The notes under the pieces: model-generated
The model's input: only the letters and a program-made list of their open reading frames with translations
What the model was told of the DNA's origin: nothing
Database searches by the model: none
Source: Jiangella mangrovi
Lineage (GTDB): Bacteria > Actinomycetota > Actinomycetes > Jiangellales > Jiangellaceae
Length of the DNA: 64,000 nt
Direction of reading: 5' to 3'
Assembly (NCBI RefSeq): GCF_014204975.1
Contig: NZ_JACHMM010000001.1
Location: forward strand, 5,456,037-5,520,036
Shown here: piece by piece, positions 19,897 to 35,525 of the stretch
Layout of the letters: the number at the start of each line of letters is the position of its first letter
How positions within the stretch are numbered: the first letter of the stretch is position 1
Position numbers and translations under genes: made by a program

Positions 19897-21422
19897 CAGC
19901 CGATCCCCTCCAACGCGGGTGCCTGTTCCAGCAACGTTCCCCCCCATTGCGCTGCGTATGCGCTCTCGACCGCCGCCCCCACCAGGTACAGGCGGTCGTC
20001 GGCCAGCACCGGCGCCATGACGTGCAGGCCCACGGGGAGCCCGTCCTCGTCGGCCAGCCCGACCGGGAAAGACGCCGACGCGTTGCCGGCGAGGTTGCTG
20101 GGAATGGTGCACAGGTCGTTCATGTACATGGCCAGCGGGTCGTCGACCTTCTCGCCGATGGGGAACGCCGTGGTGGGCGTCGTCGGCGAGACCAGCACGT
20201 CGACCTGCGCGAACGCGGCCTCGAAGTCGCGGGCGATGAGCGTGCGGACCTTCTGCGCCTGGCCGTAGTAGGCGTCGTAGTAGCCCGACGACAGCGCGTA
20301 CGTGCCGAGCATGATGCGCCGCTTGGCCTCGGCCCCGAAGCCGGCGCCGCGGGTCAGGCTCATGACCTCTTCGGCGCTGCGGGTGCCGTCGTCGCCGACG
20401 CGCAGGCCGTAGCGCATGGCGTCGAACCGGGCCAGGTTCGAGGACACCTCGCTGGGCAGGATGAGGTAGTAGGCCGCGAGGCCGTACTGGAAGTGCGGGC
20501 AGGACACCTCGACGACCTCGGCGCCCAGCTTCGAGAGCAGGGCGACGGCGTCGTTGAAGCGGGCCTCGACGCCGGCCTGGTAGCCCTCGCCGCCGAGCTC
20601 CTTGACCACGCCGACACGCAGGCCGGTGAGGTCGCCCTCGGCCCCGCGCTTCGCCGCGCCGACGACGTCGGGCACCGGCTGGGCGATGCTGGTGGAGTCG
20701 AGCGGGTCGTGACCGGCGATGACGGTGTGCAGCAGGGCGGCGTCGAGCACCGTCCGCGCGCACGGTCCGGCCTGGTCGAGGCTGGACGCGCAGGCGATGA
20801 GGCCGTAGCGGCTCACTCCGCCGTACGTGGGCTTGACGCCGACGGTGCCGGTGACGGCGGCCGGCTGGCGGATCGAGCCGCCGGTGTCGGTGCCGATGGC
20901 CAGCGGCGCCTCGAACGCGGCCAACGCCGCGGCGCTGCCGCCGCCCGAGCCGCCCGGGATGCGGGTGAGGTTCCACGGGTTGCGCGTGGTGCCGAACGCC
21001 GAGTTCTCCGTCGACGACCCCATGGCGAACTCGTCGAGGTTCGTCTTGCCGAGGACGACGATGCCGGCCTCGCGCAGCCGCGTGGTGATGGTGGCGTCGT
21101 ACGGCGGCCGCCAGCCCTCGAGGATCTTCGACCCGGCCGTCGTCGGCATGTCGGCCGTGGTGATGACGTCCTTGAGCGCCAGCGGGACGCCGGCGAGCGG
21201 GCCGAGCTCCTCGCCGTTGGCACGCTTCTGGTCGACGACGGCGGCAGCGGCCAGCGCGCTCTCGGCGTCGACGTGCAGGAACGCATGCACGCCCGCCTCG
21301 GCCGTGCCGTCGACCGCGGCGATGCGGTCGAGATGCGCCTGGGCGACCTCGACGGCGCTGACCTCACCTTGTGCGATGGCGGACGCGAGGTCGGCGGCGG
21401 TCTTGCGGGTGAGGCCGCTCAT
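19896..21422 (-). CDS. gatA: Glutamyl-tRNA(Gln) amidotransferase subunit A
   Basis: 508 aa, normal length. The amidase signature is complete: the catalytic Lys in LALKDVI (near residue 80), GGSGGGSAA with the cis-Ser, and the nucleophile Ser in [12 protein letters not shown]. The GGSGGGS form, with Gly in place of the second Ser, is common in actinomycete GatA. The enzyme releases ammonia from glutamine for the GatB-bound aminoacyl-tRNA. The ATG overlaps gatC by 4 bp. Confidence 0.97.
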
Positions 21423-21718
21423 GCCTCCTCCCCCAGGATCTGCGGCACCCGGAAGCGGCCGTCCTCGGCGGCGGGCGCGGCGGCCAGGACCGCCTCGGCC
21501 GGCAGGCAGACGCGCGGCTCGTCCTCGCGGAACACGTTGGTCAGCGGCAGCGCATGCGACGTCGGCGGGATGTCGTCGGCCGCGACCTCGGTGACCTGCG
21601 CGACCGCACCGAGAATCTGGTCGAGCTGGCCGGCAAGGTGCTCCAGCTCGTCGGGGGCGAGGTCGAGGCGAGCGAGGCGCGCCAGGTGCGCGACCTCCTC
21701 GCGACTGATCGAGGGCAT
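21419..21718 (-). CDS. gatC: Glutamyl-tRNA(Gln) amidotransferase subunit C
   Basis: 99 aa, typical Gat[18 protein letters not shown] at the N-terminus and FREDEPR in the middle, the peptide that wraps GatA and GatB together. ATG at 21718 is chosen because GGAG lies 6 bases before it; the in-frame ATG at 21730 has no ribosome site. A TAGGAT that could be a -10 lies at 21754-21749 on the minus strand, but no good -35 was seen. The gene heads the gat operon and sits next to the dispersed repeat. Confidence 0.95.
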
Positions 21719-21831
21719 GGCGAACTCCATGGTCGGGGAACGGGTCCGATCCTATGGCGACGAGGACGGTGCTCGCTCACCACCCGCCGATCATCTTCAC
21801 GGCCGGGTTCGCCGGGGTGATGAGGTGGGCT

Positions 21832-21980
21832 CCCCGTCCCCCTGCTGCCCAGTGTCTTAGCCGCGGGCGCACGCCTCAAGCCGGCGCCCGCTGTGGTTAC
21901 GTCGCTGCTGTGGTTGGGGGGCTTCGGCTTGACCCGTGCACCCGCGACCAAGAACTCTGGCAGCTATCAGGGGGACGGGG
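21832..21980. repeat. Terminal hairpin module of the repeat, long form
   Basis: Perfect 13-base arms CCCCGTCCCCCTG (21832-21844) and CAGGGGGACGGGG (21968-21980) enclose further inverted blocks: CTGCC/GGCAG, CGCGGG/CCCGCG and TCAAGC/GCTTGA. The whole 149-bp unit is therefore an imperfect palindrome. A related 138-bp unit sits in the opposite orientation at the other end of copy 2 (34206-34343). Confidence 0.7.
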
Positions 21981-22071
21981 AGACCCTGGGCACGCCTCGC
22001 CCCTTCGCGTGCCCGTTTCGCCCCGCTTTGGTGGGCCGTGGACAGCGATGATCATCAACGATCCGCTACAT

Positions 22072-22133
22072 CACCACGATTACCCGAGCCCCAACACGAT
22101 TGCAGGCGTATTGAGGCTCGGGTAATCATGGTG
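22072..22133 (-). other. Central 26-bp stem-loop of repeat copy 1
   Basis: Bases 22072-22097 pair with 22108-22133 around the 10-base loop GATTGCAGGC. There are 23 Watson-Crick pairs and three C-A positions, all of which become G-U pairs in RNA made from the minus strand. The same loop and a same-length stem occur in copy 2 with several different stem bases. This suggests a structured RNA or a protein-bound hairpin; the strand assignment is inferred from the G-U pairs. Confidence 0.6.
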
Positions 22134-22281
22134 GGCGGCCCAGAAAACGCCCCCGAAATCCCACATCGTGGGATGGCGCGGGCCTCGAGGGCGAGTTCAC
22201 CGGCCACAACCACGCAATTGAAGTCGCCACCCCGCACCCGTCGCCAGACTCCCCCCGTCCCAACCCCACGCACCGTAGGAA

Positions 22282-22974
22282 TCAGCCGACCTCGAAGCGG
22301 TAGCCCATGCTCGGCTCGGTGATGAGGTGGACGGGGTGGGCGGGGTCGGGTTCGAGCTTGCGCCGCAGCTGCGCCGCGTACACCCGCAGGTATCCGGTCT
22401 CGCGCGAGTAGGCCGGCCCCCAGACCTCCTGCAGCAGCTGTTGGCGCGACACCAGGCGGCCGGCGTTGCGGACGAGCACCTCGAGCAGGTGCCACTCCGT
22501 CGGTGTCAGCCGCACGTCCGCGCCCGACCGCGACACCTTCTTGCGCGCCAGGTCGATCTGCAGCTCGCCGGCCACCACCACCGGCTCGCCTTCGCCAGAG
22601 GCACCAGGGAGCGAGCGCCGCCAGGCCGCCCGCAGCCGCGCGAGCAGCTCGTCCATGTCGAACGGCTTGGTGACGTAGTCGTCGGCGCCGGCGTCGAGCG
22701 CGCGGACCTTGTCCGACGAGTCCTGTCGCGCCGACAGCACGATGATCGGCACGGTGGTCCAGCCGCGCAGCCCGGCGATCACCTCGAGGCCGCTGATGTC
22801 GGGCAGGCCGAGGTCGAGGACGACGACGTCGGGGTGGCGTTCCGCCGCCGCCGTCAGCGCGCCCCGTCCGTCGGCGGCGGTGACGACGTCCCAGCCGCGG
22901 GCACGGAGGTTGATCGCCAGCGCCCGGGTCAGTGCGGGGACGTCATCGACGACGAGGACGCGCGGCCCGCTCAC
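22282..22974 (-). CDS. kdpE: KdpE potassium-response regulator
   Basis: 230 aa. The receiver domain has the acidic pocket D10/D11, phospho-acceptor D54 (VVVLDLGLP) and the KPF lysine, followed by an OmpR-type winged-helix DNA-binding domain (RLTPTEWHLLEVLVRNAGRLV). It activates kdpFABC when potassium is limiting, on phosphorylation by KdpD. GTG start overlaps the kdpD stop by 4 bp, so it closes the operon. Confidence 0.96.
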   Translation of the reverse strand: MSGPRVLVVDDVPALTRALAINLRARGWDVVTAADGRGALTAAAERHPDVVVLDLGLPDISGLEVIAGLRGWTTVPIIVLSARQDSSDKVRALDAGADDYVTKPFDMDELLARLRAAWRRSLPGASGEGEPVVVAGELQIDLARKKVSRSGADVRLTPTEWHLLEVLVRNAGRLVSRQQLLQEVWGPAYSRETGYLRVYAAQLRRKLEPDPAHPVHLITEPSMGYRFEVG

Positions 22975-32574: not shown

Positions 32575-33776
32575 GCGACGAGGCGACCCGGCCGCGGGTG
32601 ACCTGGCGCCAGATCGGCCGCGACCTCGGCTATCTCGTGCCGGGCATGCCCATTGCGGTGTTCTCCTTCGCGCTGATGATCACCGGGTTCTTCCTGGGCG
32701 TCGGGCTGATCGTGCTGGCGTTCGTCGGGCTGATCATCCTGGCCGCGACGCTGCTCACCGGCCGCTGGTTCGCCCGGGTCGAGCGGGGCCGGGTCGGCCT
32801 CATGGAACGGCGCTCCGTGGGGCCGGTGTACTACCAGCCGCCCCGCGAGCGAGGACTGTCGCGCGTGCTCGAGATCCTGCGCGACCGGCAGACCTGGCGC
32901 GACTGGCTGTACAACGTGCTGATCCTCCCGGTCCGGGTGTTCACCTGGTCGGTGACGATCATCTGGCTCGGTTTCGCGATCGGGCTGTCGCCGCTGATCC
33001 TGCTGTCCTGGGCCATCGCCGGCGGCGGCGGGTTCCGCGGACTGCCGCTGGCCATGGCGCACATCCTGCGCGGGGTCGCCGCCCTGGAGTCGTCGCTGGC
33101 GTGGGGGCTGCTGACCAACGAGACCGCCGCCCTGCGCGCCCGCACCGAGGAGCTGAGCCGCAGCCGCCAGTCCGTCGTCGCCGCCGAGGCCGAGATGCTC
33201 CGCCGCGTCGAGCGCGACATCCACGACGGCCCGCAGCAGCGTCTGGTTCGGCTCACGATGGACCTCGAGTCCGCCCAGCGCCGCTTCGACGACGACCCGC
33301 AGGCCGCCCGGCCCCTGGTCGAGGAGGCCGTGCTGCAGACCAAGGAGGCCCTGGCCGAGCTGCGCGCGGTGTCGCGCGGCATCGCACCTCCCATCTTGAC
33401 GGACCGTGGGCTGCCGGCCGCGTTGGCTGCGGCGACGGCGCGCTGCCCCGTCCCGACGACCCTGGACGTCGACCTGCTCGACGGCGAGCGGCTGCCGGCG
33501 GCGGTCGAGAACGCGGCATACTTCGTGGTGACGGAGTCGCTGACGAACGTGGCCAAGCACTCCGACGCATCGTCGTGCGCGGTGTCCGTGCTGCGGGTCG
33601 AGGACGTCCTGCACGTCCAGGTGACGGACGACGGCCGGGGTGGGGCTCACCTCGGCAAGGGCCACGGCTTGGCCGGCCTGGCTGACCGGTTGGCCGGTGT
33701 CGACGGCCGGTTGGATGTCGCCTCGCCCCCCGGAGCCGGGACGACGGTGTCCGCTTCGTTGCCGCTGGTGGACTGA
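32571..33776 (+). CDS. Sensor histidine kinase, copy 2 (putative-sensor + HisKA_3)
   Basis: 401 aa, tandem paralogue of copy 1, with phospho-acceptor H218 in the identical DIHDGPQQRL box. From the coiled linker (RTEELSRSRQSVV) to the end the two proteins are almost the same, including the invariant SRGIAPPILTDRGLPAALA stretch, while the membrane sensor halves differ much more. The pattern suggests two inputs feeding one partner regulator, or gene conversion of the catalytic half. ATGA overlap with copy 1. The dispersed repeat copy 2 begins 17 bp after the stop. Confidence 0.9.
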   Translation: MSDEATRPRVTWRQIGRDLGYLVPGMPIAVFSFALMITGFFLGVGLIVLAFVGLIILAATLLTGRWFARVERGRVGLMERRSVGPVYYQPPRERGLSRVLEILRDRQTWRDWLYNVLILPVRVFTWSVTIIWLGFAIGLSPLILLSWAIAGGGGFRGLPLAMAHILRGVAALESSLAWGLLTNETAALRARTEELSRSRQSVVAAEAEMLRRVERDIHDGPQQRLVRLTMDLESAQRRFDDDPQAARPLVEEAVLQTKEALAELRAVSRGIAPPILTDRGLPAALAAATARCPVPTTLDVDLLDGERLPAAVENAAYFVVTESLTNVAKHSDASSCAVSVLRVEDVLHVQVTDDGRGGAHLGKGHGLAGLADRLAGVDGRLDVASPPGAGTTVSASLPLVD

Positions 33777-33804
33777 GGTTCTGCCGGGGGTTCGAGGTGG
33801 GCGA

Positions 33805-33851
33805 CCCGTCCCCCTGCTGCCCAGTCTCTTGGCAGCTATCAGGGGGACGGG
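33805..33851. repeat. Terminal hairpin module, short form
   Basis: Arms CCCGTCCCCCTG (33805-33816) and CAGGGGGACGGG (33840-33851), with inner CTGCC/GGCAG pairing and a small loop. It equals the long module of copy 1 with its central ~100 bp missing. Confidence 0.65.
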
Positions 33852-33930
33852 GAGACCCTGGGCACGCCTCGCCGTCATCTTGCGGTGCGCGAGGCTGTGG
33901 ACACCGATGATCATCAAGGATCCGCTACAT

Positions 33931-33992
33931 CACCGGGCTTACCCGAGCCTCAACACGATTGCAGGCGTGTCGAGGCTCGGGCAAGCCTGGTG
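33931..33992 (-). other. Central 26-bp stem-loop of repeat copy 2
   Basis: Bases 33931-33956 pair with 33967-33992 around the same 10-base loop GATTGCAGGC as copy 1. Non-Watson-Crick positions are one G-T and two A-C; the A-C pairs are U-G in minus-strand RNA. At the eighth pair copy 1 has A-T (22079/22126) and copy 2 has C-G (33938/33985), a two-sided change that keeps pairing. Confidence 0.6.
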
Positions 33993-34046
33993 GGCGGCCC
34001 AGAAAACGCCCGAGATCCCACCACGTGGACGGCCACGAGCCGTCGA

Positions 34047-34084
34047 GGGCGGGTTACTACCGCCAGAGCAGCAGTAACCCGCCC
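34047..34084. other. 12-bp hairpin unique to repeat copy 2
   Basis: GGGCGGGTTACT (34047-34058) and AGTAACCCGCCC (34073-34084) enclose 14 bases. A further GGAGGGA/TCCCTCC pair encloses the palindrome CGCTATAGCG at 34113-34122. These parts have no counterpart in copy 1. Confidence 0.6.
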
Positions 34085-34205
34085 ACGACGCCCGTCAGGA
34101 GGGAGTTCTCCCCGCTATAGCGAGGAAAAGTCCCTCCCGACGCCGTCAAAAGGGCCGACCTCAATGGCGACCGAGCCAGCGAGCCACCACCCACCCGTCG
34201 CCAGA

Positions 34206-34343
34206 CTCCCCCCGTCCCCCTGATAGCTGCCAGGTTGTTGGCCGCGGGGACCCGGGTCAAGCGGTCCCCCCGCGCGAAGCGCCATCGGTCCGCTTGAGGC
34301 GGGTGCACGCGGCTAAGACACTGGGCAGCAGGGGGACGGGGGG
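34206..34343. repeat. Terminal hairpin module, inverted, right end of copy 2
   Basis: Perfect 15-base arms CCCCCCGTCCCCCTG (34206-34220) and CAGGGGGACGGGGGG (34329-34343). Read on the minus strand it matches the long module of copy 1, including the GTCTTAGCCGCG stretch and the TCAAGC...GCTTGACCC blocks. Confidence 0.7.
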
Positions 34344-34352
34344 AACCCCACC

Positions 34353-35525
34353 TCAGGGCGCGGCAGCGTCCGGCGCGGCCGCCGGCTCGATGGCCAACAC
34401 CACGGGCAGGGCGGGCAGCGCCGGCAGATGCGGGTGCGGCATACGCGCCGTACGCCGACGAGCCCGAGCCGCGGCCAGCAGCCGGACGCACACCCAGGCC
34501 GCCGCCATCAGCGCCGCAGCGGCGACCGGGGCGATGAGGATGACGGCGCGGAAGAGGAACACCGTCGGGAGGGCTTCGCCGAGGCTGGCGCCGGCCAGCA
34601 TCAGGGTCCCGATGAGGGCGGTCTCGGCCGAGCCGATGCCGGCGGGGGTGGGGGTGGCGGCCGACAGGGCGGTGCCGGCGAGGTAGGCCGCCATGGCCAC
34701 GCCGATGCTGATGGGGACGCCGAAGCCGACGGCGGCGAGGGCGAAGCCGGTCGCGAGGCAGGTGGCGGCAGCCAGCTGGGCGGTCAAGGCGGCGAGCGCC
34801 AGGACCGGCCGGGCGCGGACCGAGGCGAGTACGTCGCGCGACGTCAGCACCAGCCGGCGCCACTTCGACGGCGGCGCCACCACGGCGGGCAGCGACGAAG
34901 CAACCGGAGCCGTCCGGACCGCCGGGTGAGCACCGAACCGCGCCAGTCCCCCAACCGAACGGGCCGCGCGACGACGGGACAGCCAGCCGGCCAGCAGCTT
35001 CACCGCGACGACGATCACCGCGGCCACCGCGAGCACTGTCAGCAGGCCGCTCCAGCCCTCGCGCAGCCAGGCGACCCCCAGCAGCAGTCCGCCCGCGTGG
35101 GCGAGTCCGCCGGCCACGGCCCACAGCGCGATGACCCCGGCGGCAGCCGTGTTGGAGGCGCCGCCGCGGTGCAGGGCCGCCGCGAAGACGCCGGCCGCGC
35201 CGACCCCCGCCGGCACGATGCGGTTGGCGACGGTGCCGCCGACGTGAGCGGTCGCCGTCTCGGTCCACGAGAGGTAGCCGGTGCAGATGGCCCGCTTGCC
35301 GGTGATGGCCGCGATCGTCGCGAGCACCCAGAACAGCGCCACGATGAACGGCACGGTGGGGTTGCTGCGCATCGCCGTCGCCAGGTTCGGCAGCGCCGCG
35401 GGCACGACGACCAGCCCGACGGCGACGAGGCCGGCGATGACTGCCAGCAGACCGACGACCCGGCGAGTGCTGCCGAAAAACGCACTCCGCCGGGCCTTCG
35501 TGGTGGTCTGCTCGTCGATCGCCAC
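34353..35525 (-). CDS. UPF0104/LPG-synthase-TM family membrane protein
   Basis: 390 aa, about eight membrane segments, with the family landmarks NRIVPAGVGAAGVFAAALH (near residue 100) and STPTPAGIGSAETALIG-like text, seen here as AATPTPAGIGSAETALIG (near 300). Members include flippase-like proteins and the membrane half of lysyl-phosphatidylglycerol synthases; the soluble aminoacyl-transferase half is absent. GTG at 35525 gives a short cytoplasmic N-terminus and has only a weak AGG before it. The stop lies at the edge of the dispersed repeat, so the C-terminal tail (Pro/Ala-rich) may have been altered by the insertion. Confidence 0.75.
   Translation of the reverse strand: MAIDEQTTTKARRSAFFGSTRRVVGLLAVIAGLVAVGLVVVPAALPNLATAMRSNPTVPFIVALFWVLATIAAITGKRAICTGYLSWTETATAHVGGTVANRIVPAGVGAAGVFAAALHRGGASNTAAAGVIALWAVAGGLAHAGGLLLGVAWLREGWSGLLTVLAVAAVIVVAVKLLAGWLSRRRAARSVGGLARFGAHPAVRTAPVASSLPAVVAPPSKWRRLVLTSRDVLASVRARPVLALAALTAQLAAATCLATGFALAAVGFGVPISIGVAMAAYLAGTALSAATPTPAGIGSAETALIGTLMLAGASLGEALPTVFLFRAVILIAPVAAAALMAAAWVCVRLLAAARARRRTARMPHPHLPALPALPVVLAIEPAAAPDAAAP

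Follow-up and report, generated by a model that had tools for sequence, protein, structure and literature searches.

A composite palindromic repeat at gene ends in Jiangella, probably a non-autonomous mobile element

Two dispersed copies of a hairpin-bearing repeat lie in a 64,000-nt stretch of the genome of Jiangella mangrovi, a member of a genus of soil bacteria. This stretch is the window, and nucleotide coordinates below follow its numbering; the whole genome from which it comes (7.16 Mb) is referred to as G000. An earlier note on the window suggested either a structured RNA, transcribed leftward, or a mobile element kept for its fold. Comparison across the genome and its relatives supports the mobile palindrome and does not support the leftward RNA. 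We consider the repeat to be, probably, a non-autonomous composite palindromic mobile element of the Jiangellaceae, similar in its workings to a REPIN/BIME or BOX mosaic. Its copies are dispersed and modular, relatives have empty sites, its ends abut stop codons, and it prefers the space between convergent genes. In addition, the shape and length of its hairpin are conserved across the genus, and its orientation is biased with respect to replication. We do not assign it to REPIN/BIME or to BOX; it is a new variant specific to the Jiangellaceae.

Element structure, copy number and range

The hairpin, here termed M, belongs to a composite, palindromic element built of several modules, usually in the order X-D-M-(optional further hairpins)-P-X'. 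Complete elements are about 500-700 bp long and have no coding capacity of their own. X and X' also form long hairpins, complementary to one another, and together with GAGGTTCTGCC/GGCAGAACCTC they constitute terminal inverted repeats. The inner modules are variable, and some composites lack M and have other hairpins instead. Fixed outer and optional inner modules are also the plan of BOX-like mosaics, a likeness of design and not sequence homology.

A BLAST search of G000 with D-M scored 40 places, and X alone located many more ends. A covariance model of D-M, based on 25 sequences from the genus, gave 117 strand matches in G000; given that a palindrome usually matches on both strands, we take these to represent about 60 copies. 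The model matched 21 of 22 genomes of the family. Copy number within Jiangella is patchy, with 76 to at least 150 strand matches in eight genomes and 1-6 in four. Outside the family, 4 genomes matched (E ≤ 1e-4) in a sample of 297 genomes of the class, and the matches listed scored 35-37 bits, compared to about 100-127 bits for the best Jiangella copies. A match in genome G036 (L041) is surrounded by unrelated sequence, looks like chance, and was set aside. Searches of plasmid and phage collections with blastn returned no match. A limited literature search found no description of such repeats in Jiangella, and none are mentioned in the J. gansuensis genome paper.

In a genome from another genus of the family (G018), a D-M-like module occurs directly 3' of a TAG stop codon (L040), indicating that the D-M module is older than the genus Jiangella. 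Both J. aurantiaca and another genus of the family have D-M-type modules near gene ends without detected X ends; M can therefore occur apart from X. In other settings (L039 and the second site of L042; relatives G010 and G006) D by itself folds into a hairpin, a TGATGATCATCA-type palindrome, and it may be an arm of an older palindrome.

Empty sites in related genomes

The locus of copy 2 of the window is empty in the relative G009, where the two convergent genes end as CTGA-C-TCAG (L103). For six further copies, the flanks were joined, as a query only, and searched against relatives. At every locus at least one relative matched across the joint, although the matches for L059 and L060 were weaker. 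In the empty sites the two stops are mostly 1-30 nt apart. These sites indicate that the elements arrived by insertion. The convergent genes at the L061 locus overlap in three relatives, and in G000 both proteins stop at TGA triplets that form the element ends; the comparison indicates that the element supplied both stops there.

In other species (L097, L099, L101, L102 and L105), differing versions of the element occur at the 3' end of the histidine kinase gene that borders copy 2, as if the site had been refilled.

Location at gene ends

Convergent settings account for 31 of the 52 classifiable copies but only 33 of 219 background gaps (P = 3e-10), whereas divergent settings hold 1 of 52 copies and 68 of 219 gaps. 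In G000, 87 element ends face a stop and 24 a start; around 40 D-M modules from other species, the corresponding counts are 55 and 20 flanks. The ends abut the stop codon, typically at a TGA-GGTTC junction, and GGT directly follows the stop in 18 of 44 cases, compared to 4 of 345 genes. Of 37 right ends, 21 are 34-40 nt away from the stop. Like REP and REPIN sequences, the element is thus a high-copy extragenic palindrome beside gene 3' ends. Location alone is no novelty, since REPs are reported within 20 bp of the 3' ends of convergent open reading frames (ORFs; PMC3733652) and pneumococcal repeats show an excess between convergent genes (PMC3049150).

The position directly after stops, mostly between convergent genes, might also suggest elements that serve the host as bidirectional terminators or mRNA 3'-end barriers under selection, with mobility incidental or long past. 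X and X' are strong predicted hairpins and the first structure after the stop, as would be expected of such elements. However, in close relatives the same gene pairs have no element between them and their stops are separated by 1-30 nt, and elements are almost absent from four Jiangella genomes. Furthermore, survival bias alone would give the same location, as has been argued for pneumococcal repeats (PMC3049150). We therefore think such a host-serving role improbable.

Orientation and replication

In G000, dnaA is located at 1.925 Mb, and the cumulative GC skew, determined by sampling, is lowest near 1.95 Mb and peaks near 3.8 Mb. D-M is oriented against the replication fork in 49 of 56 copies if the terminus is placed by skew, and in 42 of 56 (P = 2e-4) if it is placed opposite dnaA. 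When the terminus position was scanned, the bias was unmatched in 2000 random assignments. The pattern was first seen in 40 copies, and 15 of the 16 added later agree with it. In convergent settings alone, 26 of 30 copies (hand count) are oriented against the fork; the bias persists there, so gene direction does not explain orientation.

IS200/IS605 elements insert into the lagging-strand template (PMC6006769). The orientation bias is of this type without being specific to that family, and it hints at replication-coupled insertion. Conventional transposons can reportedly also be oriented by replication, according to a beta-clamp study cited by PMC6006769.

The skew terminus of G000, near 3.8 Mb, is far from the point opposite dnaA and implies very unequal replication arms. 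Strand-biased octamers and counts of GGGNAGGG were too noisy for placing the terminus.

Conservation of the hairpin

Across the genus, the alignment of the hairpin module is almost gapless and constant in length, with stem letters that are very different. Two-sided changes occur at 18 of 27 pairs and total 68 cells, compared to 27.4 in shuffled alignments and 4-16 with the partners slid, controls that leave relatedness in. Within G000 alone covariation is weaker (11 pairs versus 5.0) and derives largely from two divergent copies. The D core GATCATCAAnGATC is invariant in 38 of 38 aligned G000 copies and is more constant than the stem. The loop, described earlier as invariant, is not so genome-wide: GATTACAGGC, GGTTGCAGGC, GGTTGTAGGC and GCATGCATGC also occur in G000.

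About 8 of the 38 G000 copies (L024, L027, L057 and L059-L063) have chimeric hairpins, in which the inner arms are mismatched and a common-type 5' arm is combined with a 3' arm like that of L064. That this subtype has multiplied in G000 implies that recombination takes place at the loop and that a broken inner stem is tolerated, so an intact inner stem is not strictly needed. Stem-breaking copies, which the earlier note named as refuting its reading, therefore occur to some extent. Moreover, about half of the G000 copies have a G-G mismatch at two pairs. Three processes could maintain the shape: selection on the fold, correction of quasi-palindromes, or exchange for other palindromes.

The strong fold, the genus-wide base-pair covariation and the slightly better folding of the minus strand in both window copies would all be compatible with a structured small RNA transcribed leftward, but we regard this as very unlikely. 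The excess of G-U pairs in minus-strand RNA, reported from the two window copies, is not general: plus-strand A-C versus G-T mismatches number 34 versus 15 cells in G000 and 23 versus 34 in other Jiangella. The wobble-pair strand bias thus reverses in other species, and was dropped as an argument. Other points against an RNA are the greater constancy of the unpaired D motif compared to the stem, the persistence of broken stems, an orientation that tracks replication in convergent settings as well, and the lack of any Rfam 15 family matching the window at its gathering score.

We give still less credence to the suggestion that the hairpin is kept by mutation and not by selection, with template switching correcting quasi-palindromes and palindromes swapping by recombination at the loop. 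Constant length combined with very different letters would be expected, the chimeric arms show recombination near the loop, and the same effect would mimic covariation. However, many mismatches in G000 are uncorrected and spread, for example G-G at two pairs. This process concerns only the persistence of the fold and can coexist with a mobile element.

Possible mode of movement

We suggest that an enzyme acting in trans recognises a mobile palindrome of this kind by its constant D motif together with the hairpin, probably in single-stranded form at the replication fork. Copies would survive at gene 3' ends, where they presumably do least harm. Element ends would supply TGA stops, and the X hairpins are predicted to be able to end or protect transcripts from either side. 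A more far-reaching version of the proposal has the mobile palindrome moving independently of any Y1 transposase, inserting at the fork always in one orientation and keeping the length but not the sequence of its hairpin, while bringing stops and a two-way terminator to tail-to-tail genes and even separating overlapping pairs. We put forward this combination tentatively, and consider it rather doubtful as a whole.

Several observations weigh against a mobile element. No transposase partner was identified, and a search for the Y1 transposase family (PF01797) was negative in G000 and positive in 6 of 14 control genomes. No target-site duplication was recognised at seven filled and empty loci, where the spacers have diverged. 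Chimeric copies in which the inner stem is broken have also multiplied. Finally, the terminus position was inferred only from sampled GC skew, and the gene calls derive from a home-made codon-usage caller (coding fraction 0.89).

Alternatively, the element could be a classical miniature inverted-repeat transposable element, with a DDE-type transposase of some insertion sequence (IS) acting on the outer ends GAGGTTCTGCC / GGCAGAACCTC, and D-M and the other hairpins as passengers swapped by recombination. We find this unlikely, albeit worth weighing. It would account for the long inverted ends X/X', for the swapping of modules and for the composites that lack M, and conventional transposons can be replication-oriented too. 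On the other hand, D-M-type modules exist apart from X, as described above for J. aurantiaca and one other genus of the family. Neither a target duplication nor an IS with these ends was recognised, and the IS5-, IS110- and IS256-like genes that lie between X ends are insertions into the element. Pairing of X ends up to about 5 kb apart in G000, in search of an autonomous element, returned only interrupted elements: the candidates at 529 kb, 3.20 Mb, 3.12 Mb and 6.38 Mb were rejected because they hold IS5-, IS110- or IS256-like genes, a likeness named by eye from sequence.

Five copies in all, L069, L070, L071, L072 and L078 (at about 529 kb, 3.20, 3.12, 6.38 and 5.61 Mb), are interrupted by IS5-, IS110- and IS256-like transposase genes, and one and the same IS5-like gene occurs in four of them. 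Such IS may target hairpins like those of the element.

Relation to known repeats

REPs are 20-40 bp (PMC3733652) or 21-65 nt (PMC6006769) in length and are tagged by GTAG or CGTC. The Jiangella element resembles REP, REPIN and BIME sequences in its placement beside the 3' ends of convergent ORFs (PMC3733652), and its fixed motif D beside the hairpin foot recalls the REP guide sequence. Unlike REPs, it has a 62-nt hairpin inside a composite of about 500-700 bp and a different, longer side motif (D), and unlike REP-RAYT systems (TnpA-REP, Y1) it is not accompanied by a Y1 transposase in G000. Inspection of the alignment, with no dedicated search, revealed neither GTAG nor CGTC at the hairpin foot; M is preceded by CTACATCACC or similar plus the D motif.

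BOX elements of Streptococcus (boxA-boxB-boxC) are likewise composite, with fixed outer and optional inner hairpin modules and an excess between convergent genes (PMC3049150). They were compared by design only, and differ from the Jiangella element in modules, host and size; here, X and X' are long complementary hairpins that end at stops. For IS200/IS605, hairpin-dependent insertion into the lagging-strand template would give the orientation seen (PMC6006769). However, the Jiangella element has no coding capacity, and G000 no Y1 transposase. The MIRU repeats of mycobacteria are also inserted at TGA stop codons, but are short, lie inside operons and contain small ORFs, whereas the element is a hairpin mosaic that is mostly found between convergent genes.

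Should the mobile-element explanation be correct, the Jiangellaceae would represent a large natural experiment, with one hairpin in many sequence versions, both intact and broken, and with sister species in which the site between a given gene pair is empty in one, filled in another and filled differently in a third. It would then be testable what keeps a hairpin shape without its sequence, how such repeats move without a Y1 transposase, and whether they terminate transcription between convergent genes.

The two copies in the window

Copies 1 and 2 each match the family model with E ~1e-29, the model having been built from both copies among others. In both, the D motif (GATGATCATCAAsGATC) precedes a stem of 27 bp that encloses a loop of 8 nt. 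Their shared blocks and stems are present where the earlier note placed them, with arms of 27 nt that are 89% complementary and 8 nt apart (22072-22098/22107-22133 in copy 1 and 33931-33957/33966-33992 in copy 2). The stem had been described as 26 bp around a 10-nt loop; the ten letters, GATTGCAGGC, are exact in both copies (22098-22107 and 33957-33966), and measurement shifts the boundary to a 27-bp stem and 8-nt loop. Allowing one mismatch, GATTGCAGGC occurs 3 times in the window versus 3.6 expected and is not rarer than chance, so the signal resides in the fold and shared blocks, not in the loop alone. Fold z-scores of the M hairpins range from -6.8 to -8.0 on either strand, and the minus strand folds slightly better than the plus strand in both copies.

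Copy 1 (+ strand) spans about 21822-22261, slightly less than first described, between gatC (21419-21730, - strand) and a kdpE-like response regulator gene (22282-22974, - strand). It is a composite element truncated on the right, in which X, D, M and P are kept and X' is lost. The X hairpin (CCCCGTCCCCCTG ... CAGGGGGACGGGG; 21832-21984) is recognised as an inverted pair and by its fold. The D-M module (22035-22140, +) is a full match to the family model R1 and includes the D motif GATGATCATCAACGATC (22047-22063, +) and the M hairpin (22072-22133; inverted pair and fold), with its 27-bp stem and 8-nt loop ATTGCAGG. The P block (CGTCGCCAGACTCCCCCCGTCCC; 22239-22261, +), an inverted pair, forms the end of the copy. 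A 25-codon reading frame over D-M, noticed by eye, has a stop that is absent from copy 2 and was set aside.

Copy 2 (+ strand) is a complete element with extents corrected to 33777-34350. It takes up the entire interval between the TGA stop codon of a histidine kinase gene (33774-33776, +) and that of the convergent gene's stop (34351-34353, -). X is present in a short form without inner arms (33805-33851), a strong predicted hairpin directly after the histidine kinase stop. The D-M module (33894-33999, +) matches the family model and contains the M hairpin (33931-33992; inverted pair and fold). Two optional modules follow, each an inverted pair: the J hairpin (34041-34090) and the K hairpin (CGTCAGGAGGGAG...; 34093-34142), the latter present in many other copies. 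The X' hairpin (34207-34344) is an inverted pair whose predicted fold reaches -96 kcal/mol within 34205-34353 (z -5.2), and it is the first predicted structure after the stop of the minus-strand gene.
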